From Caldithrix sp. (GTDB lineage Bacteria > Calditrichota > Calditrichia > Calditrichales > Calditrichaceae): a DNA stretch of 33,847 bases. Below the pieces are notes generated by a model that worked only from the letters and a program-made list of their open reading frames with translations, searched no databases and had not been told where the DNA came from. The translations under genes were made by a program, and so were the position numbers. Location: assembly GCA_020720405.1 (NCBI GenBank), contig DYOS01000014.1:6075-39921 (forward strand). The letters run 5' to 3'. Positions 2,240 to 27,703 of this stretch are shown here, piece by piece (positions within the stretch are counted from its first letter, which is position 1; each line of letters opens with the position of its first letter).

Positions 2240-2253
2240 CAAGCAAGCTCCTC

Positions 2254-5593: not shown

Positions 5594-5656
5594 AAATCCT
5601 TCCCAAAAACAGCCGGTGCAAAATCCGACCGGGCAAAACAGGCAGATAAAATTTGT

Positions 5657-6691
5657 TTAGTCGTAGCTGTACTCACTCCGGAAGAAACCAGAGATCATAG
5701 CTTTAAACTCGGCCCGACTAAGCTGATGCGAGATATTAAACCGGGACAGAGCATACGGATTTGAGCCGATATGATTAAACCCTTTGATCTGCGTGGCGGC
5801 GGTGGCGTAGCCCAATCTTTCCAGTAGTCTGAAATGATTTTGTCCGAAATTACCCGGGCTGCCATTGGGATAGCTAAAATGCCGGCAAACCTGCCCGGTA
5901 TGGTCTTCGATCAGCTTTTTTGAGATGGTTAGCTCGGTTTCAGCCTGTTCCTCCGGAATCATGTTGAGCAGCATGTGCTCATGGGTGTGCGATCCGATAA
6001 TCATGCCCAAATCACTCATGGCCTGTACTTCGTCCCAGTTCATAAACCGGTAGCGGTCGGCATCGATTTCCGGGCTGAGATTTTCGGTTCCGGTTTGTTT
6101 TTTTATCAGGGCCATTATCTCTTCAGCTTCACTGAAAGTCTTCTGTTTCAGGTAATTACGGATTTCCACCGAGGCCTTTAATTGTCCGGCCGGGGTGCTC
6201 AGGTCAAAGAGATGCTCACGATTCAGGGTTAATGACAGCGATTTTACAGCGGTAAAAATCAGCGCCGCTGTAATAAACTCGGTCCAGAGCAGGCGGTTTT
6301 TCCCGATGTAACCGGTGTTGATATAGAAAACAGCAGGAACATTGTTTTCCTTCAGCACGGGCAGAGCATATTTAAAATTATTTGTAAAACCGTCGTCAAA
6401 AGAAATAAAGGCATAGCGGCCGTTTATGCGCCCGGAAGTAAAAATTTGTGAGAGGTCCTCAATGGAAACCACATCATACAGATTCTTCAGAATTTTTATC
6501 TGACGGTCGAAATGGCGTGTAGTAACACAGTTGCGGTAGTCGTAGCGTTGGAATTTTTCCGATTCCGGAATGACTGAATGATAGGTTAGCCCAACCACCT
6601 GCTGCTGAAATGTGGCGATTCGTTTACGGGTAAAACCAGCCAGATCGAGCCCTGTATAATACAAATTTTTCAGAAAGGATTTCGGTTTCAT
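5657..6691 (-). CDS. Polysaccharide deacetylase (NodB/CE4 family)
   Basis: Metal-dependent removal of N- or O-acetyl groups from a carbohydrate. Motif 1 is SFDDG (D99 catalytic base, D100 metal). Motif 2 is SHTHEH, giving the H235-x3-H239 metal pair. Motif 3 is the FSYPNG block at 272-277, with R317 in ALSRFNI consistent with a later motif. About 344 residues with no clear signal peptide. Its start overlaps the flippase stop by four bases (ATGA), so the two genes are translationally coupled. A 63-bp gap separates it from the kinase gene downstream. Exosortase-A-associated polysaccharide loci commonly encode a deacetylase of this kind. Whether it acts on a lipid-linked precursor or on polymer is unknown. 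Confidence 0.88.
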   Translation of the reverse strand: MKPKSFLKNLYYTGLDLAGFTRKRIATFQQQVVGLTYHSVIPESEKFQRYDYRNCVTTRHFDRQIKILKNLYDVVSIEDLSQIFTSGRINGRYAFISFDDGFTNNFKYALPVLKENNVPAVFYINTGYIGKNRLLWTEFITAALIFTAVKSLSLTLNREHLFDLSTPAGQLKASVEIRNYLKQKTFSEAEEIMALIKKQTGTENLSPEIDADRYRFMNWDEVQAMSDLGMIIGSHTHEHMLLNMIPEEQAETELTISKKLIEDHTGQVCRHFSYPNGSPGNFGQNHFRLLERLGYATAATQIKGFNHIGSNPYALSRFNISHQLSRAEFKAMISGFFRSEYSYD

Positions 6692-8226
6692 CTCAGACTT
6701 TTCCTTGTGCTGATTTTGCCAAATAATCGTCCGGCCTTAGTCCCGAAGGTTTCACTGAACACCTGCTGGATCTCCGGAAATTTAAACAGGTACACACCAG
6801 CCAGGTAACCAATCAATGAAAAACCGGAAATCAGGCTTAGTTCGAATACATCATTTTCCGGCAGCATGGGCAGCAGCCCGTAAATGGCGCCCAGAATAAA
6901 AACAGTCATCACTATATTTATGGCCAGTGCATGTTTTATGGCCGACCAGAAATTAAGCCAGGCCCAGCCGGTATGTTTTTTAAAATGCAGGCCGTTGAAG
7001 AACAAAGTAAAGATGGAAGTAAAAGCCACAGCTCCGGCAACCCAGTCGATGCTGATCCGGGCTGTCCATAGAACACCGGCGGTCAGGATAAGCAGGCTGT
7101 AAAAATAGGCTTTGGTTCGCTCCTTAACTAATCCCTTGGCCAAAAGAGCCGGATTGAAAATCTGGGCAATAGAATTCAGGAACCCGGAAATACACATGAT
7201 TTGTGTCGGGACAATGGTCGGCTCCCAGCGCTCACCATACAGGAATAAAATCAATGAGGGTGCAGCAAAAAAAAGCCAGGTCATCAGGGGCAGACTGATC
7301 AGCGAAACAGAACGCATAACTTTATTCATGGCATTGATCAACCGCTCATTCTGATCCTGCATCCGCGAATAGGTTGAAAACAAAACGGCATTGATCATAT
7401 CGGCGATCCGCTTACGAGGTGCATTCATCAGGTTAAAAGCACGCTCATAAAAACCAAGCTGGGCGGCGCCCAGGAATTTGCTGATCATGAAGTAATCAAT
7501 ATTGTTAATAAAATAATTGATATAGCTGTAAACATTCATCCAGGCACCATAGGAGAACACATCCTTAAATACAGAGCGGTCGATGCCAAGCTTGGGTACC
7601 CACCTGGTATAGGCATAAAAACCGATGACAAAACTTGCCTCCCCAACCATATTACCGATGACAATACTCCATACACCCATACCGAGCATGGCCAGGGGAA
7701 TCGGCAGCAGAAAATGGATCATGCCGGCGGTCATGCTGATCAACGATTCTTCTCTGAAACGCATCTTTCTTTTCAGAATAGAATTGGGCACACTGTACAG
7801 GCTGGTAATAATAAAGATAAAAGAAATCACCCGCAGAACCTGGATCACCCTGGGCAGGAGATCGATATCGTTTTCGTTTGTAATCAGACCGGCCAGGAAC
7901 GGTGCACCAAAAAAGATAATTGAGGTGATGGCGAGGGCGAACAGGAAACTAAGGGTGAATGTTGTTTTAACATGCTCATCTTTCAGATCTTTGATCTGAA
8001 TCAGCACCTGAGTGAACCCGAAATTTCCGATACGCTGGGCAAAGCGGGTGACAATCAGGGCCATCCCCATAATACCGAAGTCTTCCGGGAAAAGAATCCG
8101 GGCCAGTACAATGGAGGCTAAAAAGCGGGAACCCTGATTACCTAAAGTGCGGATAACATACCACAATATGCCTTTGCGGGCTTGCTCGCCAAGGGAATCC
8201 TTTGTTGTATCCTGATCATTGCTCAT
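6688..8226 (-). CDS. Wzx-type polysaccharide flippase (MOP superfamily)
   Basis: Integral membrane protein expected to move the undecaprenyl-diphosphate-linked repeat unit from the cytoplasmic to the periplasmic face. The 512 residues are mostly hydrophobic segments, consistent with 12-14 membrane helices. A family-typical N-terminus, QARKGILWYVIRTLGNQG, is followed by ASIVLARILFPEDFGIMGMA, the classical opening of the polysaccharide_synt / MATE-like lipopolysaccharide exporters (WzxC type). Its presence with an O-antigen ligase/polymerase and a Wzc-like kinase supports a Wzx/Wzy-dependent pathway rather than an ABC exporter. It starts 5 bp after the upstream glycosyltransferase stop and overlaps the deacetylase start by four bases. 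Confidence 0.92.
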   Translation of the reverse strand: MSNDQDTTKDSLGEQARKGILWYVIRTLGNQGSRFLASIVLARILFPEDFGIMGMALIVTRFAQRIGNFGFTQVLIQIKDLKDEHVKTTFTLSFLFALAITSIIFFGAPFLAGLITNENDIDLLPRVIQVLRVISFIFIITSLYSVPNSILKRKMRFREESLISMTAGMIHFLLPIPLAMLGMGVWSIVIGNMVGEASFVIGFYAYTRWVPKLGIDRSVFKDVFSYGAWMNVYSYINYFINNIDYFMISKFLGAAQLGFYERAFNLMNAPRKRIADMINAVLFSTYSRMQDQNERLINAMNKVMRSVSLISLPLMTWLFFAAPSLILFLYGERWEPTIVPTQIMCISGFLNSIAQIFNPALLAKGLVKERTKAYFYSLLILTAGVLWTARISIDWVAGAVAFTSIFTLFFNGLHFKKHTGWAWLNFWSAIKHALAINIVMTVFILGAIYGLLPMLPENDVFELSLISGFSLIGYLAGVYLFKFPEIQQVFSETFGTKAGRLFGKISTRKSLR

Positions 8227-8231
8227 AAATT

Positions 8232-9353
8232 TTATGCTTTTCCCATACTGTTTAAGTAAAAGTTCCGGTATGCGGCTATCATGGCCGGCAGCGAAAATTG
8301 CTCCCGGGCGAGATTCAAACCAGCCCGACCCATTTCTTCCCTCAGCCTGGTATCGGTCAGAATCCGGCGCAGATATTGTGATAAATCATAAACATCATCG
8401 TTTTTGAAGAGGAAACCACTGACATCGTGCTGAACCAGTTCAGGATTTCCGCCGACATGGGAAGCAACGACCGGAAGACCGGTGGCCATGGCTTCCTGTA
8501 TAACATTCGAACAACCTTCGCTGAGTGAGGGCAGTACAAAAAGATCAAACATATTTAATAAATCGGGCACTTCATTTTTCATTCCGATCAGGTGAATCTT
8601 TTCCTGCACACCCAGTTCGGCGGCGAGTGCAGCCAGTTCTTTCTTCACGGAATACATGGGTGAATCGCCAACCACAACAAAATGGACATTATTGAATTCA
8701 TCCCAGAGCTGATGCATGGCGCGGATCACCAACTGCTGATTTTTCAGGGCCACGGTGCGGCCAACCGTCCCGATAACCAGGTCCGTCTCGCCGAAACCAT
8801 AGATTTTGCGCTGGGTTTTTCGTTTTTCCGGGTCGGGGTAAAAGCGGTCTGTATCCACGCCGTTGAGAATGGCCTGCATCTTTTTGCGGGGGAAACCGAT
8901 GGTGGCAGACAGGTCGTCGGCCAGAACCGCAGAAACCGAAAGCAGATGATCGGCCCGGTTAAAAAAGAACCGCTGCACCATCAGACGTTTAGCATCCTTG
9001 TGAAAGCTGCCGTGCTCGCCGTGAATAATTTGTTTTACACCGGCCAGACGTCCGGCGGCAATACCCTCAACCAATGTGCCCCAGGCATGGGTGTGCAGAA
9101 TATCGATTTTATAGTGGTGCAGGATGCGGGCCAGTCTTAGTGGCAGAAGCGGATCATTGCCGCGTCGCTTGTTCAGCGAAATTAGTTTTACTTTTGACGG
9201 ATCGAGCGATAAAGTATCAAAAACCTTGTCAAAAACAATCAGATAATTCTCAAACTCATTACTGTCGAGAGCATTGAGCAGTTTGATAATACCTATTTCT
9301 TTCCCGGCCGGAGAAAGGAAATTGATTAAATGAGCCAATCGGATGCGTTTCAT
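8232..9353 (-). CDS. GT4 glycosyltransferase
   Basis: Retaining GT-B glycosyltransferase, 373 residues, expected to act on the lipid-linked repeat unit in the cytoplasm. The N-terminal half has LLNALDSNEFENYLIVFDK and HTHAWGTLVEG. The C-terminal half has ILNGVDTDRF (162-171), IGTVGRTVALKNQ (194-206) and an E-x7-E nucleotide-sugar motif (E279 and E287) within LSEGCSNVIQEAMATGLP. This is among the most canonical GT4 proteins in the locus, and it resembles the exosortase-A-associated family-1/4 transferases. It follows the other GT4 gene after 4 bp and precedes the flippase by 5 bp. Confidence 0.93.
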   Translation of the reverse strand: MKRIRLAHLINFLSPAGKEIGIIKLLNALDSNEFENYLIVFDKVFDTLSLDPSKVKLISLNKRRGNDPLLPLRLARILHHYKIDILHTHAWGTLVEGIAAGRLAGVKQIIHGEHGSFHKDAKRLMVQRFFFNRADHLLSVSAVLADDLSATIGFPRKKMQAILNGVDTDRFYPDPEKRKTQRKIYGFGETDLVIGTVGRTVALKNQQLVIRAMHQLWDEFNNVHFVVVGDSPMYSVKKELAALAAELGVQEKIHLIGMKNEVPDLLNMFDLFVLPSLSEGCSNVIQEAMATGLPVVASHVGGNPELVQHDVSGFLFKNDDVYDLSQYLRRILTDTRLREEMGRAGLNLAREQFSLPAMIAAYRNFYLNSMGKA

Positions 9354-9357
9354 AATA

Positions 9358-10728
9358 TTAAAGTTGCTCCAGCAGATTTTCCAGAATGTAGATTTGTTCT
9401 TTCATATTAAACCGGTTGATATATTCCTGATCAGGTTCAAACCCTGAATCAACCGAAGTCAGTAATGGAATAAGCTTTTGTTCAATATCGGCAACCGAAC
9501 TGCTGTCGGCCACTACACCCAGGCGCCCCTCACTGATCGCCCGATCGGTTGCGCTATCCGGCAGGGCCATGGCAAAAATTGGTTTTCTGGTGTACATGTA
9601 TTCATAGAGTTTGGCTGGGATCTGTAAATCCGTACCCGGTTGGATGAGCAACAGGATATCCGCCTGGAACATGGTCTGAATGCTCTCTTCAAAACTGATT
9701 GAGCCCTTAAAACTGACCAGATCATCAATACCAAGCTCAACAATTTTTTCTTTTAAAATATTAAGCTCATTGGCAATAAAGCCATAGAATTCAATAATCA
9801 GCTTGAAACTCCCCAGCTGACCGGAGTCTTTGAGATTTTTGATGGCCAGGAACAGGTTGAGCGGATTACGTTTTTTATACAGGGTTCCCAGGTGAACCAT
9901 CCGGATAATCCCATCCTTTTTTGGTTCGGATTGGATCGTCCGGGGAAAATCATCCGGATCGTAACCATTGGACAGCAATAAAAATTTATCGGCTGGCTGG
10001 TCAGAATAAAAGTTGGCGTATTCATCGCGCAGTTTGGGAGTTACAAACAGAATGCGGTCGGCTTCCTGTATTACTTTTTTCTCCAGGTACTGCTCTAATT
10101 TTTTCATCAAGGAAAAACCATTGGCGCTGTCCCAGCGCGACAGGCTCCATGGATCACGGTAATCGAGTACCAGACGGGCACCAGTTCTTTTCTTAAGCCG
10201 GCGGGCGATCAGAAACATGGAATGCGGCGGTGCTGTGGTCAGAATAATTTCAATGTTTTTTTCACGGATCAGGCGGGTGCCGACACGGACGGCATTTCTA
10301 TACCAGCCGATATATTTGTCCGGAAATTCAAAAACCGAAAAAAGCATTTTTCGGGTGCTTTCGGCCAGACGATGCAGGGCCGATTTCCGGCGCATCGGGC
10401 TGGCTGAAGATTTGACCTTCACGGCAGAGGTATAAACCCCGGCCTCCGGCTTTTGCTTTTGCAAAACAGATTTCAGTACCCGTTTCAGATTTGTAAAAAT
10501 AAGTGTTAAATCCCTTTTGGGCGTGCGCTGAACCTGCACCGCTGAGGGAATTTTAGCGGCATCACCAGCTTTCTCACCAAGCTCCAGATCGTAATCATCT
10601 TCCGGCAGGGTCAAAACCCAGAAATTGAATTTCCGGTGATCAATAAATTTTAAAATTTTACTGACCCGGTGCGTGCCAACCGAATGATTTGGCGGAAAAT
10701 TTGTCGTCAGGAAAAGAATGCGTTTCAT
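9358..10728 (-). CDS. GT4-like glycosyltransferase with long N-terminal half
   Basis: Probable glycosyltransferase of 456 residues. It opens MKRILFLTTNFPPNHSVGTH, typical for GT4 donor/acceptor domains. An insert of about 80 mostly charged residues (60-140) separates that from LTTAPPHSMFLIARRLKK and LDYRDPW (188-194). The GT-B C-domain shows LSNGYDPDDF (252-261), GTLYKKRNP (281-289) and GTDLQIPAKLYEYMYTRKP, in which KLYEY is the donor-site acidic region. The basic insert could be a membrane-association patch, as in peripheral glycosyltransferases, but this is an inference. It lies 18 bp after the O-antigen ligase gene. The Shine-Dalgarno site is weak. Confidence 0.87.
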   Translation of the reverse strand: MKRILFLTTNFPPNHSVGTHRVSKILKFIDHRKFNFWVLTLPEDDYDLELGEKAGDAAKIPSAVQVQRTPKRDLTLIFTNLKRVLKSVLQKQKPEAGVYTSAVKVKSSASPMRRKSALHRLAESTRKMLFSVFEFPDKYIGWYRNAVRVGTRLIREKNIEIILTTAPPHSMFLIARRLKKRTGARLVLDYRDPWSLSRWDSANGFSLMKKLEQYLEKKVIQEADRILFVTPKLRDEYANFYSDQPADKFLLLSNGYDPDDFPRTIQSEPKKDGIIRMVHLGTLYKKRNPLNLFLAIKNLKDSGQLGSFKLIIEFYGFIANELNILKEKIVELGIDDLVSFKGSISFEESIQTMFQADILLLIQPGTDLQIPAKLYEYMYTRKPIFAMALPDSATDRAISEGRLGVVADSSSVADIEQKLIPLLTSVDSGFEPDQEYINRFNMKEQIYILENLLEQL

Positions 10729-10746
10729 AATTTATTAAATTCCACT

Positions 10747-12027
10747 TTAAACTGAACTCTCCTGTTCAGGAGTTAAAATATAGTCAACCTGAATATTACG
10801 CAGGGCAACCGAGAAGGCCGCAAACCAATAGACCACCTCTGAATATAGCCGGTTATGAAAAAGTCCGGCCGCAAGAATACCTATTATACCCATCTGCATG
10901 GCTACAGCATCGATGTAAAACCGATAATGAGGGGTGTGCTTCGCATCCCTTCGTATTCGTCCCATAATGACCAGGGCATGAATAATCATACCAAAAAAGA
11001 TGAAAGTCCCGACAAAACCCCATTCCACCAGAACCAGAAGAAAGGTGTTATGCACGGTTTTGACGCCGCGTTTTTCCATAACCTCAACCAATTCGGGCAC
11101 ATATTGCATGGCCATCGCCTGAAAGCCATCTCCACCCAGTCCCATCGGGTGGTCCTGAAACATTTTAAGGGCACCATTCCAAAGGTAAAAACGGCTCATG
11201 GCCGAGCCTTCTTCTTCATACTCAGTAATAGTATTTTGTCTGGCCCAGAACTGCTCATTACCCAGCATCAGCACCAGCACACCGCCTAATACCACACCAA
11301 GAATAGCCCGGTATCGCATCCGGCCCTTCAGCCAGAGCAAAGCCAGAAGACCTATGATCATCATGGCCAGAAAAGAAGCCCGTGAATTGGCCAGAATGAC
11401 CAGGTTGACCAAAAATGGCAGTGACAGGAAAGTGACAATTTTTTCCCATTTTTTCCCCATCAGAAAATAAAGACCAAAGAAACCGGTGATGGCAGCGACG
11501 TGGGCTGAAATGGCATTTTCTTCAGTTGCATTAGGCGCCGTCACTCCGAGATCACGGTTTGAGCCGCGCTGATACGCGGTGCGCCCGAAATTAGCCACAC
11601 CAAACATCATCGTCCAGATCACAAAACGGTGGTGCTCAACGGTCCGCACCAGGAACATCATCAGAAAAATCTGAACCGTCATTTTAAAAAAGATGTCAAC
11701 TTTTTTAAAACTTTCCGCAGGATCAACCGCGAAGAGCAGACTGACTACGAACATCCACAGGGTCATGGCAACCAGCCAGAAAATCCAGGCATAATCCGGG
11801 GAACGAAGCTGCTTTAATTTTTTGTAGTTTATAACCAGACTGATCAGGGTAACCAAAGCAACCAGCAGCGACCAGCGCAGGTCAGGCAGGCCCCTGCCCC
11901 ACCACATATACGGCGGGTGATTGTGCCATTCAAAAATATAGGTGGCAATTCCATAATAGGGGTGGCGAAAGGTCAGAAATAATCCGGTAAAATACAGTGC
12001 CAGGAAAATAAGGGTTGTCAAAGACAT
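10747..12027 (-). CDS. O-antigen ligase/polymerase-like membrane protein (Wzy_C family)
   Basis: Multi-pass inner-membrane protein of 426 residues with about 10-12 hydrophobic helices. It probably polymerises repeat units or transfers them to an acceptor in the periplasm. The diagnostic region is a large periplasmic loop between about 255 and 325. ILANSRASFL (R216) precedes it, GLGGDGFQAM lies within it, and VHNTFLLVLVEWG (H326) ends it. The HN-x5-E-x-G signature is characteristic of Wzy_C ligases. The N-terminus (FRHPYYGIATYIFEWHNHPP) looks like the exosortase-A-associated O-glycosylation ligase subfamily, a resemblance judged by eye. It lies 5 bp after the LarA-like gene. Ligase and polymerase cannot be told apart from sequence. 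Confidence 0.87.
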   Translation of the reverse strand: MSLTTLIFLALYFTGLFLTFRHPYYGIATYIFEWHNHPPYMWWGRGLPDLRWSLLVALVTLISLVINYKKLKQLRSPDYAWIFWLVAMTLWMFVVSLLFAVDPAESFKKVDIFFKMTVQIFLMMFLVRTVEHHRFVIWTMMFGVANFGRTAYQRGSNRDLGVTAPNATEENAISAHVAAITGFFGLYFLMGKKWEKIVTFLSLPFLVNLVILANSRASFLAMMIIGLLALLWLKGRMRYRAILGVVLGGVLVLMLGNEQFWARQNTITEYEEEGSAMSRFYLWNGALKMFQDHPMGLGGDGFQAMAMQYVPELVEVMEKRGVKTVHNTFLLVLVEWGFVGTFIFFGMIIHALVIMGRIRRDAKHTPHYRFYIDAVAMQMGIIGILAAGLFHNRLYSEVVYWFAAFSVALRNIQVDYILTPEQESSV

Positions 12028-12032
12028 GATAT

Positions 12033-13250
12033 CTACTCCGTAAGCTGCAGGCTGGCCTGTGGGAAAACGGCAACCTTTGGGTTTTCAGGCAATTTACCGG
12101 TCAGGTATTCCACAAGCTCATCCCAGTCTGAGAAGAATTTATCCTGCTCGTGATAAGCTTTATAAAAATCATGTTCATTGATGCTGTCCGAAAAGAAAAC
12201 GAGTTGTCTGCCCTTCAGGAAATTCAATGGTTTCGGTGGGCGATACAACAGACCATCCGGCTCAAATAAACCGTGATGACCAAAACCATCCGAGCATTCT
12301 GAAGTCAGCAGAACGATGGCATCTTCCTTTAAGAATGGCCGGCTTGCCGATTTAATCGGAATAAAGGCATTTTCAGCCTGCAGTAATTCCGTATCCTTGG
12401 GATAGGCATTCACGATGACCAGATCGAAAGGGCCTTTTTCTGCCACACCGTTGTGTAAATAGAGCTTTCTGGCAACCTGCGCGGCCCGGCGGTGGGCCTC
12501 TATAAAATCACCCGTTTCGATATGATGTATGCTGCGGTCGCCATTGATAACCACACCAACAAAATATTCCAGGCCAACCGTCCGGGTGAAATCTTCAATC
12601 AGGTTTCGGAATTTATTGTTCGCCGTTTCACCAAGCTGACCCATGAATCCCATTAATACGGATTTGTGGGTCCGGGCGATGGTTGGCATATCAGCCAACC
12701 CGGGAAAAAGCATTTTTGCCCCGCCGCTGAAGCCGGCGAAACTATGCGGAGTCAGACCGCTGACCACAATCCGGAAATCCGCCGCCAGGTAATGGCGGTT
12801 CAATTTGACCCGGTTTTGCCCCCAAACCACCTCGGTTTCTTCCGTTTCAGCGGGCTGATGATTATACCACCGATACCGGGCGGCAGCATCTTTTCCTAAT
12901 TTCTTTGCTACCATTTCAGGCGTCAGCGCTTTATGCGAACCAAGCCCGATCAGGAACGAAATCTGGTTATCCGAAAAACCTGCCTGGTGCAAAATTTCCA
13001 GCATCGGACGAAGTATCGGCTGCAATGAAACCGGCCGGGTCAGGTCATCGGTCACAATCAAAACCGAGCCTGGTTTGTGTTTTTCCAGTTCAGTCTTCAG
13101 TGAAAGCAAAGAGGCTGCGATAGCCTGATCCGGGAAAATCTGCGGAGCGGGGATACTAAAATTTTCAATCTGCCAATCGCTGGGCACAAAGTAGAGAATA
13201 TTGATATCGCCGTACCAGGCTCCCCGTGGCAGAATGATTTTGTTTTTCAT
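12033..13250 (-). CDS. LarA-family (nickel-dependent lactate racemase-like) protein
   Basis: LarA-type enzymes racemise or epimerise 2-hydroxy acids using a nickel-pincer cofactor covalently held by a lysine. All key positions are present. TDDLTRP (67-73) is the N-terminal signature and GSHKALT gives H106 (LarA H108). TPHSFAGFSGGAK gives H169 (LarA H174) and K179 (LarA K184, cofactor lysine). MPTIARTHKS gives H195 (LarA H200, nickel ligand). At 405 residues it is slightly shorter than LarA. The cofactor makers LarB, LarC and LarE are not in the window. The start overlaps the acyl carrier protein stop by four bases (ATGA), so the two genes are coupled. LarA paralogues act on various 2-hydroxy acids, including sugar acids, so a role in making or epimerising a hydroxyacyl or sugar-acid decoration is possible but unproven. 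Confidence 0.88.
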   Translation of the reverse strand: MKNKIILPRGAWYGDINILYFVPSDWQIENFSIPAPQIFPDQAIAASLLSLKTELEKHKPGSVLIVTDDLTRPVSLQPILRPMLEILHQAGFSDNQISFLIGLGSHKALTPEMVAKKLGKDAAARYRWYNHQPAETEETEVVWGQNRVKLNRHYLAADFRIVVSGLTPHSFAGFSGGAKMLFPGLADMPTIARTHKSVLMGFMGQLGETANNKFRNLIEDFTRTVGLEYFVGVVINGDRSIHHIETGDFIEAHRRAAQVARKLYLHNGVAEKGPFDLVIVNAYPKDTELLQAENAFIPIKSASRPFLKEDAIVLLTSECSDGFGHHGLFEPDGLLYRPPKPLNFLKGRQLVFFSDSINEHDFYKAYHEQDKFFSDWDELVEYLTGKLPENPKVAVFPQASLQLTE

Positions 13251-13486
13251 TTTTTCGAATTGATAAAGGTTTCGATGGCATTCAATGTGTCGAAATTCTC
13301 CGGAAATAAATCTTCCTCGGCTACTTTGATGCCATAAGTCTTTTCAATAAAAGCTATCAGTTCCAGCATCTTAACCGAATCAATAATTCCGGCTTCGAGC
13401 AGGGAATCATCCGGGCCGGGATTGCCGGTTTCATTATCCGTAGTGTCATCCGTTAAAAATTTTAAAACATCATCCTGTATACTCAT
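13247..13486 (-). CDS. Acyl carrier protein
   Basis: Small 79-residue acidic four-helix protein. The phosphopantetheine attachment site is S37 in EAGIIDSVKMLELIAFIE, where the usual DSL is DSV. The downstream half (GIKVAEEDLFPENFDTLNAI) matches the helix II-III recognition region of standalone carrier proteins. It begins with a strong site (GGAGG, 4 nt before ATG), 15 bp after the GNAT-like gene, and overlaps the LarA-like gene by four bases. It is not near fatty-acid synthesis genes, so a dedicated role in this polysaccharide locus is likely. Carrier proteins also occur in exosortase-A-type clusters, usually with an AMP-dependent acyl ligase, which is absent here. Confidence 0.92.
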   Translation of the reverse strand: MSIQDDVLKFLTDDTTDNETGNPGPDDSLLEAGIIDSVKMLELIAFIEKTYGIKVAEEDLFPENFDTLNAIETFINSKK

Positions 13487-13501
13487 GATACCTCCGGAGT
13501 T

Positions 13502-14566
13502 TTATGAATCACGGTCGCCCACGGTCATAAACCAGTTCGACCCGTTGGTTACAATTTTCGCCAGCTCGGGCTCATTTTTGCTGTTGGCATAGATTATAGC
13601 CCCGGAATCCGCATCGCTGCGCCGGGAGAAGCCGCATTTTTTTAGGTTTTGAACCAGGGGATTGAATTCCTGCAGAATAAAAGACAGGCTGTTTATCCCG
13701 GGGAATTCACGGTAAACCGCTGTTTTAAAGGCTTCAATGACCAGGGTGGAATTTTGGCTGAAATCAGAAACCATTAAATCAACCATAAACAGGGCATCAT
13801 TTTTCACCTCGAAAAATACGGAAGCCAGGAGTTGGCCGGCGCGGTGGATATCAAACTGCTGAACCTGATGGTTGGGATTTTGGCCCATTTTCCAGTTCAG
13901 ATAAACCTGGTTACGAACCCCGATAACCCGGAAATTCTCCGCCATATTCTGATCCAGCCGGTCGTGTTCAGCGGTTATATTCAGTTTAGGGTGAAACTGA
14001 ATTTTCAAATCAGCGGCGGACCTTTTCAGCCGGAACAGATTAAGCAGCGGATTCAAAAAGAAAGCGGCGGCTGAAGCCGGTAATTCGCGGCCTATTTTAT
14101 TTTTCAGCAGGCGGTAAAAGCGGAGCGGGAAAGCGTAACGGGTCATTCCGGCCAGCCTGAAATGCCCGGCCTTCAGATGGATAACTTCCATCCTTTCGTT
14201 GGGATGGGCATAGAGAAAGGGCATCTCACCGCGGTCGATATCATCCTTTGCCGCTTTGCGCAGCATCAGGGCTATACCGAGACTGCGGAATTTTTTTTCG
14301 ATCGAAAAATCACCACAGTTCCAGCATATTTTCTTTTGCCCATCAATATACATTTCACGGGGGAAAACACCGGTAAATCCCACGGCAAGCTGCTGCTCCT
14401 CATTCCAGACAATCCAGGCTTTGGCCAGCCCGGCCGGATTATTCAGATAAACATGGCGGAAGCGGGCAGCATAATCAAAATCTTTCCGCTCGCGGTTATT
14501 GATTAAAATCTGAACCATGGTGTTCATATCTTTTTCCAGGTCGGCCTGACGTACTAAATAGCCCAT
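13502..14566 (-). CDS. GNAT-fold acyltransferase-like protein
   Basis: Probable N- or O-acyltransferase of 354 residues. A GNAT core lies in the first half. GDFSIEKKFRSLGIALMLRK resembles the acyl-CoA/pantetheine-binding strand and loop (R/Q-x-x-G-x-A/G). It is followed by FLYAHPNERMEVIHLKAGH. The second half continues with FEVKNDALFMVDLMVS and LSFILQEFNPLVQNLKKCGF, a possible second degenerate GNAT domain. An in-frame upstream codon at 14632 would add 22 residues inside the GT2 gene. ATG 14566 is preferred because GGAAG precedes it and it sits right behind the GT2 stop. Position next to an acyl carrier protein suggests the acyl donor may be acyl-ACP. The substrate is unknown. Confidence 0.78.
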   Translation of the reverse strand: MGYLVRQADLEKDMNTMVQILINNRERKDFDYAARFRHVYLNNPAGLAKAWIVWNEEQQLAVGFTGVFPREMYIDGQKKICWNCGDFSIEKKFRSLGIALMLRKAAKDDIDRGEMPFLYAHPNERMEVIHLKAGHFRLAGMTRYAFPLRFYRLLKNKIGRELPASAAAFFLNPLLNLFRLKRSAADLKIQFHPKLNITAEHDRLDQNMAENFRVIGVRNQVYLNWKMGQNPNHQVQQFDIHRAGQLLASVFFEVKNDALFMVDLMVSDFSQNSTLVIEAFKTAVYREFPGINSLSFILQEFNPLVQNLKKCGFSRRSDADSGAIIYANSKNEPELAKIVTNGSNWFMTVGDRDS

Positions 14567-14567
14567 T

Positions 14568-15725
14568 TTACTCTTCCTGATTTTGGCGTATGGTATTCCA
14601 GGTTGTGTATTTTTTGCCGAGCAGGTTATCAATTATGCCCAGTGTCGAGGCGATGTTGACCAGAACAAAATAGGCCGGAATGGCAAACAACAGCACTGAT
14701 TTCCGGCCTCTGGTTTCGGCTTGAATGCCGAGAGCGGCCAGCAGGTAAAAAGCAGTTTGCATCAGCAGGAAAAAATCATAAACAGGTCTACCGCTTAGCA
14801 AAACATTGGTGATCAGGATAAGCAGCAATATAATTCCGGCCAGCCAGCGCAATAATTTGTGCGAAAAAATCTGCCATGAAAAAATGCCGGTGCGCAAGGG
14901 ATTCAGTACCGCGCTGTTTTTAAACAGACCGCGCCAGCTGCGGTTAACAATGCGCCTTTTACGTTTGAATTCTTTGAGCATATTCTCGGCGGAATGTTCG
15001 TAGCAGAAAGCCCGTTCATTAAAAAGTCCGCGGTATCCCTTCAGCCTGATCTGCAGCGGGTTGACAAAATCATTAATATCATCATCGGCCATGGGCTCAA
15101 ATAATTCCCGGCGTATGGCATAAATCGCCCCATCTCCGCCAACCACCGAATCGAGCCGGCTTTCCAGTTTTTTGATTCCGATTTCAAAATTCCAGTAAGT
15201 CGTTTCCTTATTGCCCTGTGCCTCAGCCCCGTCAGAATAATAGCGGGCATGACCAACCACATAACCAACCTTTTGATTGGCAAAACCACTGACTATTTCG
15301 CGTAGTGCATTCCGGTCATAAATGGCATTGGCATCGGAGAAGACAATGATTTCGGCCACCAGCCGGGGTACGAGAAGGCTGATGCCATGGGTTTTGCCCC
15401 TGCGGCCTTCAACCCGGAACAGACGGACACCCTGGCCGGAAAAACTGCGGACAATTTCATCGGTGCGGTCGGACGACTCATCCGATATAACCCAGATTTC
15501 TTTTAAGTCGGGCGGGTAATCAATATCGAGACTGTTTTGCAGCTTGCCGGTGATGACCTCTTCTTCATTGTAGGCAGAGATGATCAGGGCAATTTTAGGG
15601 AGTGCTTCCTGAACCTGAGGTGGCAGTTTTTTTTGAGTCTGAGCCAATAATGCCAGTAATACCGGGTAACCGATAAAAACATAAATCAGAATGCCGCTCA
15701 AAATCCAGAAAAGAATTTCAGTCAT
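14568..15725 (-). CDS. Membrane-bound GT2 glycosyltransferase
   Basis: Processive-type or repeat-unit GT-A glycosyltransferase of 385 residues. One N-terminal membrane helix (about 5-27) precedes the catalytic domain, and three C-terminal helices follow (about 285-375). The catalytic domain shows LIISAYNEEE (48-56), a donor region at VFSDANA (D131), GGDGAIYAIRR (196-206), the acidic cluster DDD (214-216) and a basic stretch with R262-x-W264, close to the Q/R-x-x-R-W motif. This domain plan resembles cellulose/hyaluronan-synthase-like GT2 enzymes. It is followed almost directly by the GNAT-like gene. A 130-bp gap separates it from the FemAB-like gene upstream. Confidence 0.9.
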   Translation of the reverse strand: MTEILFWILSGILIYVFIGYPVLLALLAQTQKKLPPQVQEALPKIALIISAYNEEEVITGKLQNSLDIDYPPDLKEIWVISDESSDRTDEIVRSFSGQGVRLFRVEGRRGKTHGISLLVPRLVAEIIVFSDANAIYDRNALREIVSGFANQKVGYVVGHARYYSDGAEAQGNKETTYWNFEIGIKKLESRLDSVVGGDGAIYAIRRELFEPMADDDINDFVNPLQIRLKGYRGLFNERAFCYEHSAENMLKEFKRKRRIVNRSWRGLFKNSAVLNPLRTGIFSWQIFSHKLLRWLAGIILLLILITNVLLSGRPVYDFFLLMQTAFYLLAALGIQAETRGRKSVLLFAIPAYFVLVNIASTLGIIDNLLGKKYTTWNTIRQNQEE

Positions 15726-15855: not shown

Positions 15856-16887
15856 TCACGGAATGTTTTTGACTATAGCCGGGCCGAGAAGTTTGGTTAT
15901 GGCTAAAGGCAGTTTCTGCCAGATTTTAATAGCCAGACTGAATTTCGGGTTTTCTTTGTTTGACCCGGGCAAGGCAGTGTTTTCCGGCAGAATATAATGC
16001 CAGTACAGCTGACGCTCGGTGCCACCCCATTGTTTTTTAAATTTGTAAGTCCCGCCGTCGATGGTACCTCTCCCGAAATCAAAAAGTTTATAACCGCTTT
16101 CGATACCATAGGTCATACATTCCCAGTATAAAAGCATATTCGGACTAAGGTGGTTGTATTTACGCAGAGCGGAAGCCCAGGGAATTTCGAGCACTTCCCT
16201 GAAACCAATCAGAAAAGCCGCCGCGGCAGGCTGATGATCGGCCGTGTAAACTGTGACAATCCGGGCCGAATTTCCGAGCCTGGTCAGCATGGTGATAAAA
16301 AAATCCCGGCCGTATACCGGTGTCCCCAAATCCCTCATATTCCGGCTGAAGACATAATAAAAATCTTTTAACAGTTCCTGATGCCCGCTCCGGGCATACA
16401 TTCCTTCCTTCTGCGGCCGTTTGATCTGGCTTCTCAGCTTTGCTTTGAACCGTCCCGAGAATGCTTCGACGGTCGAATCAAGTTCCAGCTCAAAGGTCAC
16501 TTTGTTTTGATAGGAGGGCAGGTCAGGAAAAATATTGTCTTTGTGTCTTAATTCAACCAAATCTGCGCCTTTGGCCGAAAGAATTTCAGCAGCTTTCTGC
16601 AGAAGCAGCCGGGCACTTTCTTCATCGCTGCATAGAAGACCGCCATAGTTGACATGTGGCATGGAAACAAGCCGGTTACCAAACAGGCGCGACGAAAAAT
16701 GGGCCATAGGCAGAACAGCCTTGATTTGCCCGTCGGTTTCCACAAATAAGTACTTGGTTTCTTTCCCGAAATACGATTCAATAATGTCCTTCCACACCGT
16801 CAGATGATAGGGCGTGGCCTGCACATGATTCAGGACGTACTCATCCCATAGGGTATAGAGTTCAGGGGTTAAGAACTTTACAATCAT
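15856..16887 (-). CDS. FemAB/GNAT-like protein, exosortase-A-associated type
   Basis: 343-residue protein of the FemAB-related group found in PEP-CTERM/exosortase-A polysaccharide clusters. Characteristic stretches include TPYHLTVWKDIIESYFG near the N-terminus and SMPHVNYGGLLCSDE. Further on are FRKYNHLSPNMLLYWE-like text (ALRKYNHLSPNMLLYWECM) and FDFGRGTIDGGTYKFKKQWG near residue 300, the pattern TIGR-type FemAB members show. FemAB relatives transfer amino acids or acyl groups to cell-wall or glycan amines. The function of this subgroup is not established. It lies 12 bp after the tyrosine-kinase gene. The 130-bp gap behind it holds no convincing terminator. Confidence 0.82.
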   Translation of the reverse strand: MIVKFLTPELYTLWDEYVLNHVQATPYHLTVWKDIIESYFGKETKYLFVETDGQIKAVLPMAHFSSRLFGNRLVSMPHVNYGGLLCSDEESARLLLQKAAEILSAKGADLVELRHKDNIFPDLPSYQNKVTFELELDSTVEAFSGRFKAKLRSQIKRPQKEGMYARSGHQELLKDFYYVFSRNMRDLGTPVYGRDFFITMLTRLGNSARIVTVYTADHQPAAAAFLIGFREVLEIPWASALRKYNHLSPNMLLYWECMTYGIESGYKLFDFGRGTIDGGTYKFKKQWGGTERQLYWHYILPENTALPGSNKENPKFSLAIKIWQKLPLAITKLLGPAIVKNIP

Positions 16888-16899
16888 TGGTCCGCAGGA

Positions 16900-19239
16900 T
16901 TAATAATTGTAGTATGAATATTTGTATCTGTCTTTACTGAATTCTTCTTCCGCAAAGTTCAGGATAACACCTTCCAGCTTTTCTCTGAAATCGGGATATT
17001 CACTAATTTTCCGGTTAACCTCATCGATATTGGTTTTACCCGATCCGACGACAAACAATCCCCGGTCAACGTAACGCGAGATGATAACGGAATCGGTTGT
17101 CACATTGATCGGCGGTGTGTCGATAATAATCATTCCAAATCTTTTTTTCAGAAATTCAAAAATCTCTCTGGCCCGCAGCCCGCCTATAATTTCAGAAGGG
17201 TTGGGCACCGGAATCCCGGTACTGATCATATAAAGATTGGGAATGTGGGTTTGCTGAATGATATGCCGTAGATTTTCATCATTAATATCGGCGTTGCTAT
17301 AAATAAAATCGGCCAATCCCGGTTTTTTCTTGCAGGCAAAGGAATTGTGCAAAACCCCGCGGCGCAGGTCGGCATCAACCAGCAGAGTCGGCAGTTTTTG
17401 CTGGGCGAAAGTAATGGCCAGGTTGCCGGTATTCAGCGATTTACCTTCATTGGGGTTGAGCGATGTGATAAAAATTGATTTAACCGGCCGGTCCTCATTC
17501 TGAAACAGCAGTCTGGTGCGCAGTCCCCGGTACGCTTCACCAACCGGTGTCGGGGAATAATCGGCCGTGACCAGCTTCGGATCGATATGAGCACCCTCCC
17601 GGAAGACCTCTTCCACGCCTTGTTTTGGTTTTCCAATAACCGGAATTCTGGCAATTACCGGCAGTTTTACTTTCTTCTCTAATTCTTCGGCATTGCGCAC
17701 TGTTTTGTCAAAAACATCACGCAGTATAACCAGGCCAAAACTACCGCCAAATGCTAAAAGAAGACCGATGAGGCCATATTTAAGAATTATTCCCGTCAAA
17801 CTGGCTTTCTGCGGCAGAGCTGCAGGATCAATTATGATAATATCTCCGACTTCAACCGCATCAGACACTTTTGCCTGATTTTGGCGGATAAGCAGACTGG
17901 AATACACTTCATCAGCCACCGAACGGCGTCGCTGCAATTCTGCCAAATCCAGTTCACGGGCCGGCAGGTTTTGGATTCTGTAATTGCTTTGTGAAATCCG
18001 GCCTTTCAGGGAGACAACCTGATTTTCATACTGTGCCCGTTGATTGGCTGCAGTAAGCAGTATTTTTTCTTCCAGTTTACCTAATTTTTGAGCATTCTCT
18101 AATACTGAGGGATGTTCCGTTGAGTGAGTTGACAGCAGGCGCGACCGGTCCGCCATCAGGGTATTCATTTCAGAAGTCAGAGCCGGTACAGTCGAAACGG
18201 CCTGAGCACCGAGGAATGATAATAGTTCGTTCAGAATCAGATATCTTGCCTCGCCATCGTTGCTCTGGACGCGGTTTACAATCAATTCCAACTCCTGTAT
18301 CCTGCTACTGAAACCCTGTTTCTGGCTTTCATTACCTGCTATTTCCATGACCACAGTATTAGCATCGTTGGTCAAACCAACCCAGGGATTTTTCTCACGG
18401 TATTTTTTCAGAGCTTCAACAGCTTCATCAAGTTCAACTTTTGCTGTTTGCAATTGAGCGCTTAGAATCTTTAGCACTTCACGGGTATGAAATTTCTTAA
18501 AATCCAGATTTTGCTGGACAAAAAGGTCAATCAGAACATTCATGGTTTTGGTTATATACAACCGGTCCACTCCCCGGATGTCGATAAGCATTAACGTTTT
18601 GTCTCTGTTTGCCGGTTTCGGGTTCAGTGAAGCACGCAGGGATTCAACAGCCTTATGCTTTGAAGAAACACCGTATTCAAATTCATTATGACTAAGCCAA
18701 AAATCAGGAAGAACCCAGAGTTTTACACCATTATATTCGATAAGTCCATCCTGCGGGTAATTCTTCTCCAGGACAAGCTTGTTTTCAATGCCCAGGTCTT
18801 TATTCGTGTAGAACAATTTGAAATTGTCACCATTTCGCTCAACCTTAAAAGAACCTTCCGCGTACTGATCGTCAACCGCAACAGTATCAATAACAGTATA
18901 GCGGTCAAAATCTTGTATTTTAACTTCCATGGAAAGTTTTTCCACCACATTTCCCAGGAAATTCCGGCTCAGAATCAGGCCAAATTTCCCTTCATTCTCA
19001 GCCCGGCCACGTGCTTCCAGGCCTGACAAAGCCCGGTTGTCTTCAAATTGGAGAAGGGCAGACGCTTCATATTCGGCACTCGGTCCAAAGTTTAAGGCGA
19101 CAAAAAGAAATAATATAAAGATGGTGCTGAAAAGGAAAAGAAGCAGCCATTTTTTGCGCTTGAAGAGACGAATATATCGTTTAAAATCAATCGTTCCCGA
19201 TTCAAGTATTTGATGTTCATTTTTGGAATTGTTAGCCAT
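16900..19239 (-). CDS. Wzc-like polysaccharide co-polymerase / tyrosine autokinase
   Basis: Inner-membrane protein that controls polymer length and export by cycles of tyrosine autophosphorylation. The 779 residues contain a Wzz domain from about 17, TM1 (31-50), a long periplasmic coiled-coil-rich part (about 245-445) and TM2 (482-506). The cytoplasmic BY-kinase follows. The kinase has the E568-x2-R571-x2-R574 oligomerisation motif, Walker A NPNEGKS (K600), Walker A' VDADLRR (D622, D624) and Walker B IIIDTPP (D707). The tail ends in five tyrosines (772, 774, 776, 777, 779), the autophosphorylation cluster. Single-chain fusion of co-polymerase and kinase is the Gram-negative arrangement. No phosphatase partner (Wzb) is visible. 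The exporter gene ends 14 bp upstream. Confidence 0.95.
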   Translation of the reverse strand: MANNSKNEHQILESGTIDFKRYIRLFKRKKWLLLFLFSTIFILFLFVALNFGPSAEYEASALLQFEDNRALSGLEARGRAENEGKFGLILSRNFLGNVVEKLSMEVKIQDFDRYTVIDTVAVDDQYAEGSFKVERNGDNFKLFYTNKDLGIENKLVLEKNYPQDGLIEYNGVKLWVLPDFWLSHNEFEYGVSSKHKAVESLRASLNPKPANRDKTLMLIDIRGVDRLYITKTMNVLIDLFVQQNLDFKKFHTREVLKILSAQLQTAKVELDEAVEALKKYREKNPWVGLTNDANTVVMEIAGNESQKQGFSSRIQELELIVNRVQSNDGEARYLILNELLSFLGAQAVSTVPALTSEMNTLMADRSRLLSTHSTEHPSVLENAQKLGKLEEKILLTAANQRAQYENQVVSLKGRISQSNYRIQNLPARELDLAELQRRRSVADEVYSSLLIRQNQAKVSDAVEVGDIIIIDPAALPQKASLTGIILKYGLIGLLLAFGGSFGLVILRDVFDKTVRNAEELEKKVKLPVIARIPVIGKPKQGVEEVFREGAHIDPKLVTADYSPTPVGEAYRGLRTRLLFQNEDRPVKSIFITSLNPNEGKSLNTGNLAITFAQQKLPTLLVDADLRRGVLHNSFACKKKPGLADFIYSNADINDENLRHIIQQTHIPNLYMISTGIPVPNPSEIIGGLRAREIFEFLKKRFGMIIIDTPPINVTTDSVIISRYVDRGLFVVGSGKTNIDEVNRKISEYPDFREKLEGVILNFAEEEFSKDRYKYSYYNY

Positions 19240-19253
19240 TTATACCTCTGTCA

Positions 19254-19973
19254 TCAGTTCTGTAAAATTAAACGGTCTCGTTGGTAGGTTTGATACAAAA
19301 GCCAGATGGTGGTTGAGAATGTCAACACCGGCATGATATCCCGAACACCGTCCCAGAAAGTCCGCGCATCCGGGGATGGTGTCCAGATCTGATCTCCCGA
19401 TTTGAATCCCATTTTCGTCAGAGAACGGCCGCTCTCGAAAGCCGTTGTCAGATCATTCAATTGCTCATCATGGTCCCGCTCCCAGCGCATTTTATAGATG
19501 CCATTTTCACGTATGGTGCCGCCGGCCAGTTGAACCACATCCCATAAGGAATTATTAAAATCTACATAATACAGACCGGGCCGGACAAAACCGCCGAGTA
19601 GACTGATCCGGATCACCGGTTTTATGTAAAGGTTGGGGTAACGCAGGTACGGGCGGTAATTCGCCAGCAGGAACGCCTGGAATTCTGCCATTGTCATTTC
19701 GGTAACTTTTACTTTGCCATAGATAGGGAATTCTGCCAGCCCGCGTTCATCTATCGGGAATATCCCATTCAGGAAAGATCCTGTATCAGGGAAAGCACTG
19801 ATCTGTATGCCATCACCCGGTCGGAACGGAAATTCGGCCAGATCCGGATCACCGACCACCGCCTTTTTCCCGGGGGAAATATCCAGCACGGGCCCTTTTT
19901 GAACCTGTGCATCGACAATAGTTATAAATAAAAACAACAGGCTGAAAATAGGTACAATTCTCTTGATACTCAT
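19254..19973 (-). CDS. Wza-like polysaccharide export protein (Poly_export/SLBB)
   Basis: Outer-membrane or periplasmic export channel subunit, 239 residues. It has a signal peptide (1-22, cleavage near VDAQ), a Poly_export domain (about 48-118, FRPGDGIQISAFPDTG), an SLBB domain starting near 122 (SLLGGFVRPGLYYVD) and a C-terminal hydrophobic helix (about 207-228). In Wza the C-terminal helix forms the outer-membrane barrel. There is no lipobox cysteine, so it is not a lipoprotein as E. coli Wza is. The protein is short, with one clear SLBB. It sits directly before the Wzc-like gene, its functional partner across the periplasm. Confidence 0.92.
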   Translation of the reverse strand: MSIKRIVPIFSLLFLFITIVDAQVQKGPVLDISPGKKAVVGDPDLAEFPFRPGDGIQISAFPDTGSFLNGIFPIDERGLAEFPIYGKVKVTEMTMAEFQAFLLANYRPYLRYPNLYIKPVIRISLLGGFVRPGLYYVDFNNSLWDVVQLAGGTIRENGIYKMRWERDHDEQLNDLTTAFESGRSLTKMGFKSGDQIWTPSPDARTFWDGVRDIMPVLTFSTTIWLLYQTYQRDRLILQN

Positions 19974-19986
19974 GAAATCCTCACAC

Positions 19987-20817
19987 TTAACAGGAACGGT
20001 AGTAGCGATAACGCTTTTCTTTTGTTTCGAGATCGAGTTGTTTTAAGAGGCGCCACAGTTTAATAATTCCAACTTTTGTATAGCCGAAATGCTCATGCTG
20101 CAGAACCCGGCGAATGCCGAACACACCGACCAGCGGATTCTGTGAAATCACTTTCTTCACTTTCTCCGCCAGTGGTAGTCTGTCCAGTTTGATATCATGG
20201 GTTAAGCCAGGCGGAATGAACTGTGTACCGGTACGCTCCGAAATAACAGTTGATCTGCTGCCGCCAGGCACAAATTCAAGCTGAGTATCCCGGTTCTTTC
20301 CAGCAGAAGGTGTAACAAACTGATCCTGATCCGGCATATTTAAATCAAGAATTTCGGTTTTATCCTGCCATTCCCCGGAAACCGGAGGTGTTTTTTTCAA
20401 TCCCATTTCCGGATCACGGATCAGGGGAAATTTTTCAGCGGATAAAGCCAGATCTATATCCTGCTTTTCAAAGGTGGCCGCTGCTTCCTCAACACTAACA
20501 TAATCATCGATGATATGATAGAATTCAAGCATCTGGTATACATCATAAATATCCGGAGTCATGTTGGCGATTTTTATATCACCACCGTTTTCCCTGAATC
20601 GTTTAATTTCCCCGACGAATATGCCCCAACCTGCACTTGACATATAAGTGAGTTTCCCGAAATCAACTACCACTTTATAACAATTGCTGCCAAGAATGCT
20701 GTCAAACATTTTCTGTAATTGAAAACTGTTTGATTGGTCAACATGACCCCCCAATTCAACAATCATTATGTCACCGGTCTGATCCGCAAATTTTGAATCT
20801 ATTTTTATTTTTTCCAT
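19987..20817 (-). CDS. STAS-domain protein with C-terminal HTH-like region
   Basis: 276 residues. The N-terminal STAS domain (about 3-112), as in anti-sigma-factor antagonists, has DFGKLTYMSSAGWGIFVGE, with S60/S61 at the usual phosphoserine site. A polar, probably disordered linker follows (about 113-205). The C-terminal 213-262 region (KKVISQNPLVGVFGIRRVLQ, then GIIKLWRLLKQL) is predicted by eye to be a helix-turn-helix resembling the HTH found before IS3/IS481-type integrase domains. No transposase domain is present. It is the second gene of the locus, 13 bp after the initiating sugar transferase. It may tune production by partner switching or by contacting DNA, but that is inference. No cognate anti-sigma kinase is in the window. 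Confidence 0.8.
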   Translation of the reverse strand: MEKIKIDSKFADQTGDIMIVELGGHVDQSNSFQLQKMFDSILGSNCYKVVVDFGKLTYMSSAGWGIFVGEIKRFRENGGDIKIANMTPDIYDVYQMLEFYHIIDDYVSVEEAAATFEKQDIDLALSAEKFPLIRDPEMGLKKTPPVSGEWQDKTEILDLNMPDQDQFVTPSAGKNRDTQLEFVPGGSRSTVISERTGTQFIPPGLTHDIKLDRLPLAEKVKKVISQNPLVGVFGIRRVLQHEHFGYTKVGIIKLWRLLKQLDLETKEKRYRYYRSC

Positions 20818-20830
20818 AATTTGGCCAGAA

Positions 20831-21814
20831 CTACTGTCCCTCTCCCAATAAGACGACTAAAATTGTTTTCCAGATAATGTAGAGATTCATCTTTAATGAA
20901 TCCTCATGTTCAATATATTCCAGGTCCCTGCGAACTTTATCTTTAACATCTTCCAATGTTTCGTCATAACCTACTGTAACCTGGGCTAACCCGGTGATTC
21001 CCGGCTTAACATTCAGACGATTCATGTAAAAGGGTATCTTTGTTTTGAATGTATCAGCGAAGAAGGGACGTTCAGGCCGAGGTCCGATAAAACTCATATC
21101 CCCTTTTAAAACATTCATAAACTGGGGCAATTCATCAATACGGGTTTTTCGCATAAATGCGCCGACCCGGGTAATTCGCGGATCTTTCTTTGATGCCCAG
21201 ACCGGACCGGATCTTTTCTCAGCATCCTGAACCATGGATCGAAATTTATGTACAGCAAAAACCTTGCTATTCTTACCATATCTTTGTTGTGAATAAAAAA
21301 TCGGGCCGGAAGACTCTAACTTTATACCAATCACCACTATTAGAAACAGTGGAAACAATAAAATAAGCAAAATCAGGGAACCCAAAATGTCAACTACACG
21401 GCGTAGCCCGAACTCACTTGGAGTCATCACCTCTTTGATTATATCCCGGATCACATGGCTGTAATCCGGTCCATAGGCGTCGGATATAATTCTGTAATCC
21501 AGGCCAAGCCGGTTACAAATTTTCAGAATTTCACTGAGTGATGACCTTTCCTCCGGGGAAAGAACAATCAGCACCTGTTTTATTTCAAGCCGCTCAACTT
21601 CGGTCGAAAGATTGGTCAGGCCGGGATAAACAGGGACGTTCTTATAATTCGAAACTTTTTCATCCTGACCCGGTGTAATAAAAGCGCGAACATTATATCC
21701 AAGAACAGAATAATCAAGCAGACGATCGAAGAGATTAACCGCCTCTACATTCCAACCAATGATAATTGTGCTGATTAAATTTTTGTCAGTTAGACTTTTT
21801 ATTTCTGCAAGCAA
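20831..21814 (-). CDS. Undecaprenyl-phosphate sugar phosphotransferase, short form
   Basis: Starts repeat-unit synthesis by transferring a sugar-1-phosphate from a nucleotide sugar to undecaprenyl phosphate. The C-terminal bacterial sugar-transferase domain (about 135-327) has a membrane hairpin (142-164), KFRSM (190-194), the D227-E228 pair in [14 protein letters not shown] (244-248) and PGITG (271-275). The N-terminus is a Rossmann-like CoA_binding_3 domain (about 10-120). The four membrane helices usual in WcaJ/WbaP-type enzymes are missing, so it has 327 rather than about 460 residues. The start is TTG at 21814, 7 nt after AAGGAG, and a TAA lies immediately upstream in frame, so no longer protein is possible. 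First gene of the locus. Confidence 0.92.
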
Positions 21815-27595: not shown

Positions 27596-27632
27596 AATGT
27601 ATTCTCCACAGATTTGAATAAGTTGTGGAAAT

Positions 27633-27662
27633 ATAATAGATAATGAATGAGTATTCATTCAA
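27633..27662 (-). promoter_or_regulatory. Candidate promoter of the acyl-CoA dehydrogenase gene
   Basis: On the minus strand TTGAAT (27657-27662) and TATTAT (27633-27638) are 18 bp apart, about 40 bases upstream of the ATG. The palindrome at 27644-27661 covers nearly the whole spacer and the -35 edge, the placement expected of a repressor site. Confidence 0.6.
27644..27661. promoter_or_regulatory. FadR-like palindromic operator
   Basis: TGAATGA-GTAT-TCATTCA is a perfect 7-4-7 inverted repeat. From memory, the Bacillus FadR (TetR family) operator is TGAATGA-MTAN-TCATTCA. This site matches it at all 14 arm positions and at the central TA, differing only in the first spacer base. It lies between a fatty-acid oxidation gene and the divergent GNAT-led operon and overlaps the leftward promoter. 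No regulator gene is in the window. Confidence 0.68.
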
Positions 27663-27703
27663 AATTATTAGTTTTTAAAATTTTATTCCAATTAAGGCCT
27701 TCA

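Follow-up and report, generated by a model that had tools for sequence, protein, structure and literature searches.

The window, a 33,847-nucleotide stretch of a Caldithrix sp. genome, carries a long exopolysaccharide (EPS) locus in which three tightly packed genes, all on the minus strand, encode a tandem-GNAT acyltransferase (13502..14566; 354 aa), a stand-alone acyl carrier protein (ACP; 13247..13486; 79 aa) and a LarA-family protein (12033..13250; 405 aa). The ACP and LarA genes share an ATGA stop/start overlap on the minus strand (13247..13250, TCAT on the plus strand), 15 nt separate the ACP and GNAT genes, and a single nucleotide separates the latter from a GT2 glycosyltransferase gene (14568..15725, minus strand; PF00535 and synteny), found just upstream of GNAT in most loci. 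The ACP matched the PP-binding profile PF00550 (32.6 bits, cut-off 20.8), with its phosphopantetheine serine, Ser37, in the motif GIIDSVKM, which is kept in aligned homologues; its resemblance to DltC, AsbD and AmcB was weak and below cut-offs. The open reading frames, strand and gaps thus bear out the preliminary description of this DNA as to the packed trio, the S37 of the ACP and the ATGA overlap.

The GNAT protein had no Pfam match and was assigned from its AlphaFold model (pLDDT 90.6), from Foldseek searches, which confirmed the GNAT fold, and from alignment of its homologues. The best structural matches were the GNAT proteins 2i00, 3n7z, 2ozg and 2hv2 and N-myristoyltransferases, with TM scores of about 0.55-0.65. 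An orthologue in locus L098 passes the PF00583 cut-off, and the homologues share a conserved W-M-VGDRD motif at the C-terminus. The start was placed at the ATG at 14566, where homologues begin; a TTG at 14632 would give a longer frame.

The remaining genes of the locus, all on the minus strand, are those of a surface-polysaccharide pathway. Upstream lie a FemAB-like protein of the type found in XrtA EPS loci (15856..16887; TIGR03019, 355 bits, cut-off 260) and, at 16900..21814, a Wzc-like chain-length/ATPase, a Wza-like export protein, a STAS protein and an initiating sugar-phosphate transferase, all recognized by Pfam; by synteny, these export and initiation genes are upstream in most relatives too. 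On the other side of LarA is an O-antigen polymerase/ligase gene (10747..12027; Wzy_C, PF04932), which adjoins LarA in f1 and f2 genomes and whose product is PEP_O_lig_1-like (TIGR03097, 141 bits, below the cut-off of 188), followed by GT4 glycosyltransferases, a Wzx flippase, a polysaccharide deacetylase, an APH-like kinase and a heparinase II/III-like protein (1142..10728; profile matches and synteny). Elsewhere in the window, an acyl-CoA dehydrogenase gene (minus strand) stands beside genes for a second FemAB/GNAT-type protein and a WbqC-like protein (plus strand) at 25883-29493, possibly another small glycan-modification group, and a PcrB-family (geranylgeranylglyceryl phosphate synthase-like) protein is encoded amid surface-polysaccharide genes at 29557-30297.

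Recurrence of the ACP-LarA pair in Calditrichota

Among 40 genomes sampled from the phylum, 16 had a strong match to the window-type LarA (E < 1e-70). Together with further contigs added to the genome set, this gave 20 loci whose contigs cover the ACP side of LarA (the window, L040-L055, L098, L100 and L103). The named relatives are Calditrichota metagenome-assembled genomes; G001 is a single-contig genome of 4.98 Mb. An ACP gene was beside LarA or no more than two genes away in all 20 testable loci, across which LarA identity is 34-56%. One gene lies between ACP and LarA in L040 and L042, and two, encoding a second GNAT and a flippase-like protein, in L041, L043 and L052. The GNAT was present in 17 of the 20 loci; it is absent from L100, which keeps ACP and LarA, and in L054 the GT2 gene adjoins the ACP and GNAT is not next to it, while L055 and L101 are at contig ends and fall outside the GNAT presence test. 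Overlaps of 4 nt between the ACP and LarA frames were also found in L051, L053 and L055, and the surrounding genes vary far more among distant families than does the ACP-LarA pairing. A chance or single-genome arrangement, which the preliminary description had named as a possible refutation, can be rejected, as about 20 divergent loci carry the pair or the trio, and the three-gene order does recur in polysaccharide loci across Calditrichota. In one genome, G028, the ACP-LarA pair occurs twice, on separate contigs (L054 and L055).

The 19 full-length EPS LarAs formed one clade in the phylogenetic tree (SH-aLRT 97), no member of which was detected outside Calditrichota in a motif-seeded scan. 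Its hits outside the phylum were ordinary LarAs, at E 1e-39 or weaker, plus a single archaeal protein at 1e-45, none of them with an ACP nearby. The idea that an ACP commonly accompanies ordinary LarAs was likewise rejected, with none at 62 other LarA loci, the archaeal one included. The latter (L112:10001-11254) encodes a Bathyarchaeota LarA 30% identical over its full length to EPS LarA and divergent around position 298. The literature consulted contained nothing linking LarA, ACP and exopolysaccharide.

Active site of the LarA-family protein

The LarA enzymes characterised so far take free 2-hydroxy acids as substrates and use a nickel-pincer cofactor (NPN) supplied by LarB, LarC and LarE. 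The window protein is clearly a Lar_N protein (PF09861, 112 bits, cut-off 23.3) but scores far below the NCBIfam LarA equivalog cut-offs (best 200 of 500 bits), its nearest models in this superfamily of NPN-dependent 2-hydroxyacid racemases and epimerases being the malate racemases LarAH6 (NF052593) and LarAH5 (NF052595). Its structural model (pLDDT 83.8, but below 50 close to the cofactor pocket, at residues 175-178 and 197-210, so that it is read for the fold and not for pocket geometry) was matched best by Foldseek to Mar2 (7s91, E 1.8e-24), and also to 9eid (TM 0.78) and 5huq. With the LarA superfamily, in which Mar2 (7s91/6d6z) is the nearest structure, it shares the fold and the equivalents of D72, R75, H108, H174, K184, H200 and Q295 (L. 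plantarum numbering), which in the window protein are D69, R72, H106, H169, K179, H195 and Q291 and which are invariant in 19 of 19 full-length clade members. These comprise the NPN-binding R75, K184 and H200 and the catalytic D72, H108 and H174; alignment therefore supports the earlier identification of H106, H169, K179 and H195 as conserved LarA residues. With key residues invariant at 34-56% identity, we rejected the notion of a degenerate LarA.

What the clade has lost, and what the preliminary description had missed, are two substrate-binding positions. Lys298 is Asn294 and Tyr294 is Leu290 in the window protein; across the 19 members, position 298 is Asn in 16 and Thr in three, never Lys, and position 294 is Leu in 18 and Val in one, never Tyr, whereas 67 other aligned LarAs have Lys (64), Arg (2) or Ile (1) at 298 and Tyr294 in 65. 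The clade also has a four-residue insertion after the helix that carries both positions. In LarA_Ip, Arg73, Gln295, Lys298 and the two histidines bind the substrate carboxylate, Tyr294 hydrogen-bonds the substrate 2-OH, and a Y294A variant lost NPN (PMC11851776). Desguin 2020 (PMC7583248) counts K298 among the catalytic residues and also records K298-less groups with unknown reactions. Loss of the carboxylate-binding lysine is thus consistent with a substrate whose carboxylate is not free, and Leu or Val at 294 makes NPN binding doubtful, given the behavior of Y294A. The earlier suggestion that LarA determines the stereochemistry of a hydroxy acid or sugar acid is unproven and, where the acid is free, is weakened by the absence of Lys298 in every member.

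The EPS LarAs differ from the rest of the superfamily in the replacement of Lys298 and Tyr294, in the insertion, in their linkage to ACP and EPS genes and in hosts that often lack LarBCE. They resemble the LarA-fold proteins 9q3j and 9q3k (PMC12611868) in having an altered active site and a suspected carbohydrate role, but they belong to another subfamily (about 15% sequence identity in Foldseek) with another gene context, and they keep both histidines and lose Lys298 and Tyr294.

An acyl ligase and a candidate decoration cassette

A fourth partner, also missed earlier and unlinked in the window genome, is a TIGR03098-related AMP-forming acyl ligase (393 bits, cut-off 592). It was present in 15 of the 16 genomes with a window-type LarA and in 7 of the 24 without (Fisher p 6e-5, a test that ignores relatedness), and shares the locus with LarA in at least nine cases. 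L053 holds ligase, GNAT, ACP and LarA within 5.5 kb; L103 has the order GNAT-ACP-LarA-ligase, with the ligase just after LarA as in L101; and in f2 genomes and G034 the ligase is upstream in the same EPS locus. In a tree of the ligases, the copies accompanying EPS LarA in the window's family branch apart from those of G005, G012 and G036, genomes without a window-type LarA. With exosortase-A EPS loci the window genome has in common the FemAB protein, above its cut-off, and a ligase and O-ligase resembling XrtA-associated families, but both of these score below their cut-offs. An exosortase-linked system was rejected because no exosortase (PF09721) was found in the window genome; the locus is best described as resembling the XrtA type.

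The ligase of the window genome is on another contig (G000:C91:56-1570), within a second ACP cassette (G000:C91:1-7000; L191:29-6801) that encodes, besides the ligase, a 213-aa protein without Pfam match, a DUF362 protein with a TAT signal, an ACP paralogue (DSTGILDI), an NAD-synthase-like protein and AsnB. The DUF362 protein is beside the ACP, the position held by LarA in the window, and the window LarA itself also matches DUF362 at 28 bits. As this cassette has its own ACP paralogue, the ligase may not serve the window ACP.

We tentatively favor, at somewhat less than even confidence, the reading of these genes as a cassette for acyl decoration of the polysaccharide, with successive roles for the ligase (loading of the ACP), the LarA-like protein (alteration of the acyl group) and the GNAT (acyl transfer). 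The carboxylic acid activated by the ligase, probably a 2-hydroxy acid, would be attached to Ser37 of the ACP; the LarA-family protein would then change the acyl group, most likely by inversion or redox-isomerisation at the 2-position, with the thioester on the ACP, and not the free acid, as its probable substrate; and the tandem GNAT would move the product onto an amino sugar of the EPS unit before Wzx/Wzy export. The pairing of ligase and ACP, the hydroxyacyl substrate, the tethered chemistry and the glycan acceptor are steps that we infer, a tethered substrate being suggested by the loss of the carboxylate-binding lysine taken together with the ACP pairing. The proposal that ACP and GNAT mount an acyl group on a glycan, already made in the preliminary description, gains from the matching ligase. 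Counting against the cassette are the doubtful NPN binding, the absence of LarB/C/E from the window genome, the placing of its ligase in a second cassette, L100, without GNAT, L054, where GT2 adjoins the ACP, and the seven genomes that have a ligase and no window-type LarA.

A parallel is found in Vibrio cholerae O1, where the ligase RfbL is proposed to activate 2,4-dihydroxybutanoate for attachment to CoA or to the carrier RfbK and for subsequent N-acylation of perosamine (PMC12208996, PMC3441752). This tetronate cassette (RfbL/WbeL, RfbK) would likewise use an AMP-type ligase and a carrier, decorating an amino sugar of a surface polysaccharide with a 2-hydroxy acid; no LarA is described in it (PMC12208996, PMC3441752), and the likeness concerns the ligase and carrier roles. 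An assignment to glycan N-acylation of the tetronate type is tentative: ligase, carrier and acyltransferase are linked in several relatives, but the window genome has its ligase on a separate contig. If true, the favored reading would widen the range of the LarA family, adding substrates held on a carrier and a role in decorating glycans.

Cofactor genes and alternative readings

The window genome (97% complete) had no match to LarC and none above cut-off to LarB or LarE, so that the absence of larB/C/E near the trio, noted previously, extends to the whole genome. None of the three was above cut-off in any of the six carrier genomes of the window's family, and all six keep the window-type LarA. 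Since these include the single-contig G001, it is unlikely that LarBCE were missed through fragmented assembly. The preliminary description had held that such an absence would argue against a working module; the absence is real but the argument does not follow, because six such genomes, one of them in a single contig, conserve the module and leave its NPN-site residues intact, and it is the cofactor, not the working module, that is brought into question. That the cofactor site stays intact where LarBCE are missing poses a testable question, namely whether NPN is obtained in another way or the LarA fold operates without it.

The strongest competitor to the cassette with tethered chemistry, which we nevertheless consider rather unlikely, is an ordinary NPN-dependent LarA. 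A 2-hydroxy or sugar acid would here be racemised or epimerised in free form before the ligase loads one isomer on the ACP, and LarBCE-less genomes would rely for NPN on neighbours or on some unrecognised route. The NPN-contact and histidine residues are all kept, and LarB, LarC and LarE are all present in G015-G017, G019 and G020; in G015-G017 the EPS LarA is the sole Lar_N protein, and therefore the only candidate LarA client of these genes. Outside the window's family, LarC accompanied the window-type LarA in 7 of 10 genomes, compared with 5 of 15 genomes without it (p 0.11), and was found in three of four further genomes reached through other loci. Against this reading stand the loss of Lys298 and Tyr294 in all members, the lack of any cofactor gene above cut-off in the six carriers of the window's family, and the distribution of LarC over the 40 genomes, which showed no association with EPS LarA (7 of 16 with, 7 of 24 without; p 0.5).

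Less probable still, in our estimate, is an NPN-free LarA fold recruited for an acyl-ACP or sugar intermediate, for instance in thioester handling or as an epimerase or lyase working through its histidines or a simple metal ion. It would agree with the retention of the gene in the six LarBCE-less genomes, with the replaced Lys298 and Tyr294 and the insertion after their helix, and with the DUF362 protein beside the ACP in the C91 cassette, given the DUF362 match of the window LarA. It is opposed by the invariance, in genomes without LarBCE, of Lys184, the site of covalent attachment, and of the nickel ligand His200, which would be expected to drift if unused. That GNAT and ACP carry out one polysaccharide modification and LarA another, as separate functions sharing an operon, is improbable: the intervening genes in some relatives and the GNAT-less L100 would accommodate it, but the ACP-LarA pairing and repeated 4-nt overlaps persist across families as neighbours change, and the ligase also tracks LarA.

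A more specific proposal, in our judgment a doubtful one, is that an enzyme of the LarA clade acts on carrier-bound 2-hydroxyacyl thioesters to set the stereochemistry of the polysaccharide acyl decoration, and that in some genomes its cofactor has a source other than LarB/C/E or is dispensed with altogether. The EPS clade is not alone in having a LarA relative where LarBCE are missing, since some other Lar_N proteins of the phylum keep the H, K and H residues with no LarC in the genome. A second, weakly Lar_N-like group (L081, L085 and L086, in G014, G006 and G037, only part of its members having been recovered) has Trp at 294 and keeps Lys298 and the H/K/H residues in host genomes without LarC. 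Judging by these sequences, Lar_N proteins without an NPN pathway may be commoner than assumed.
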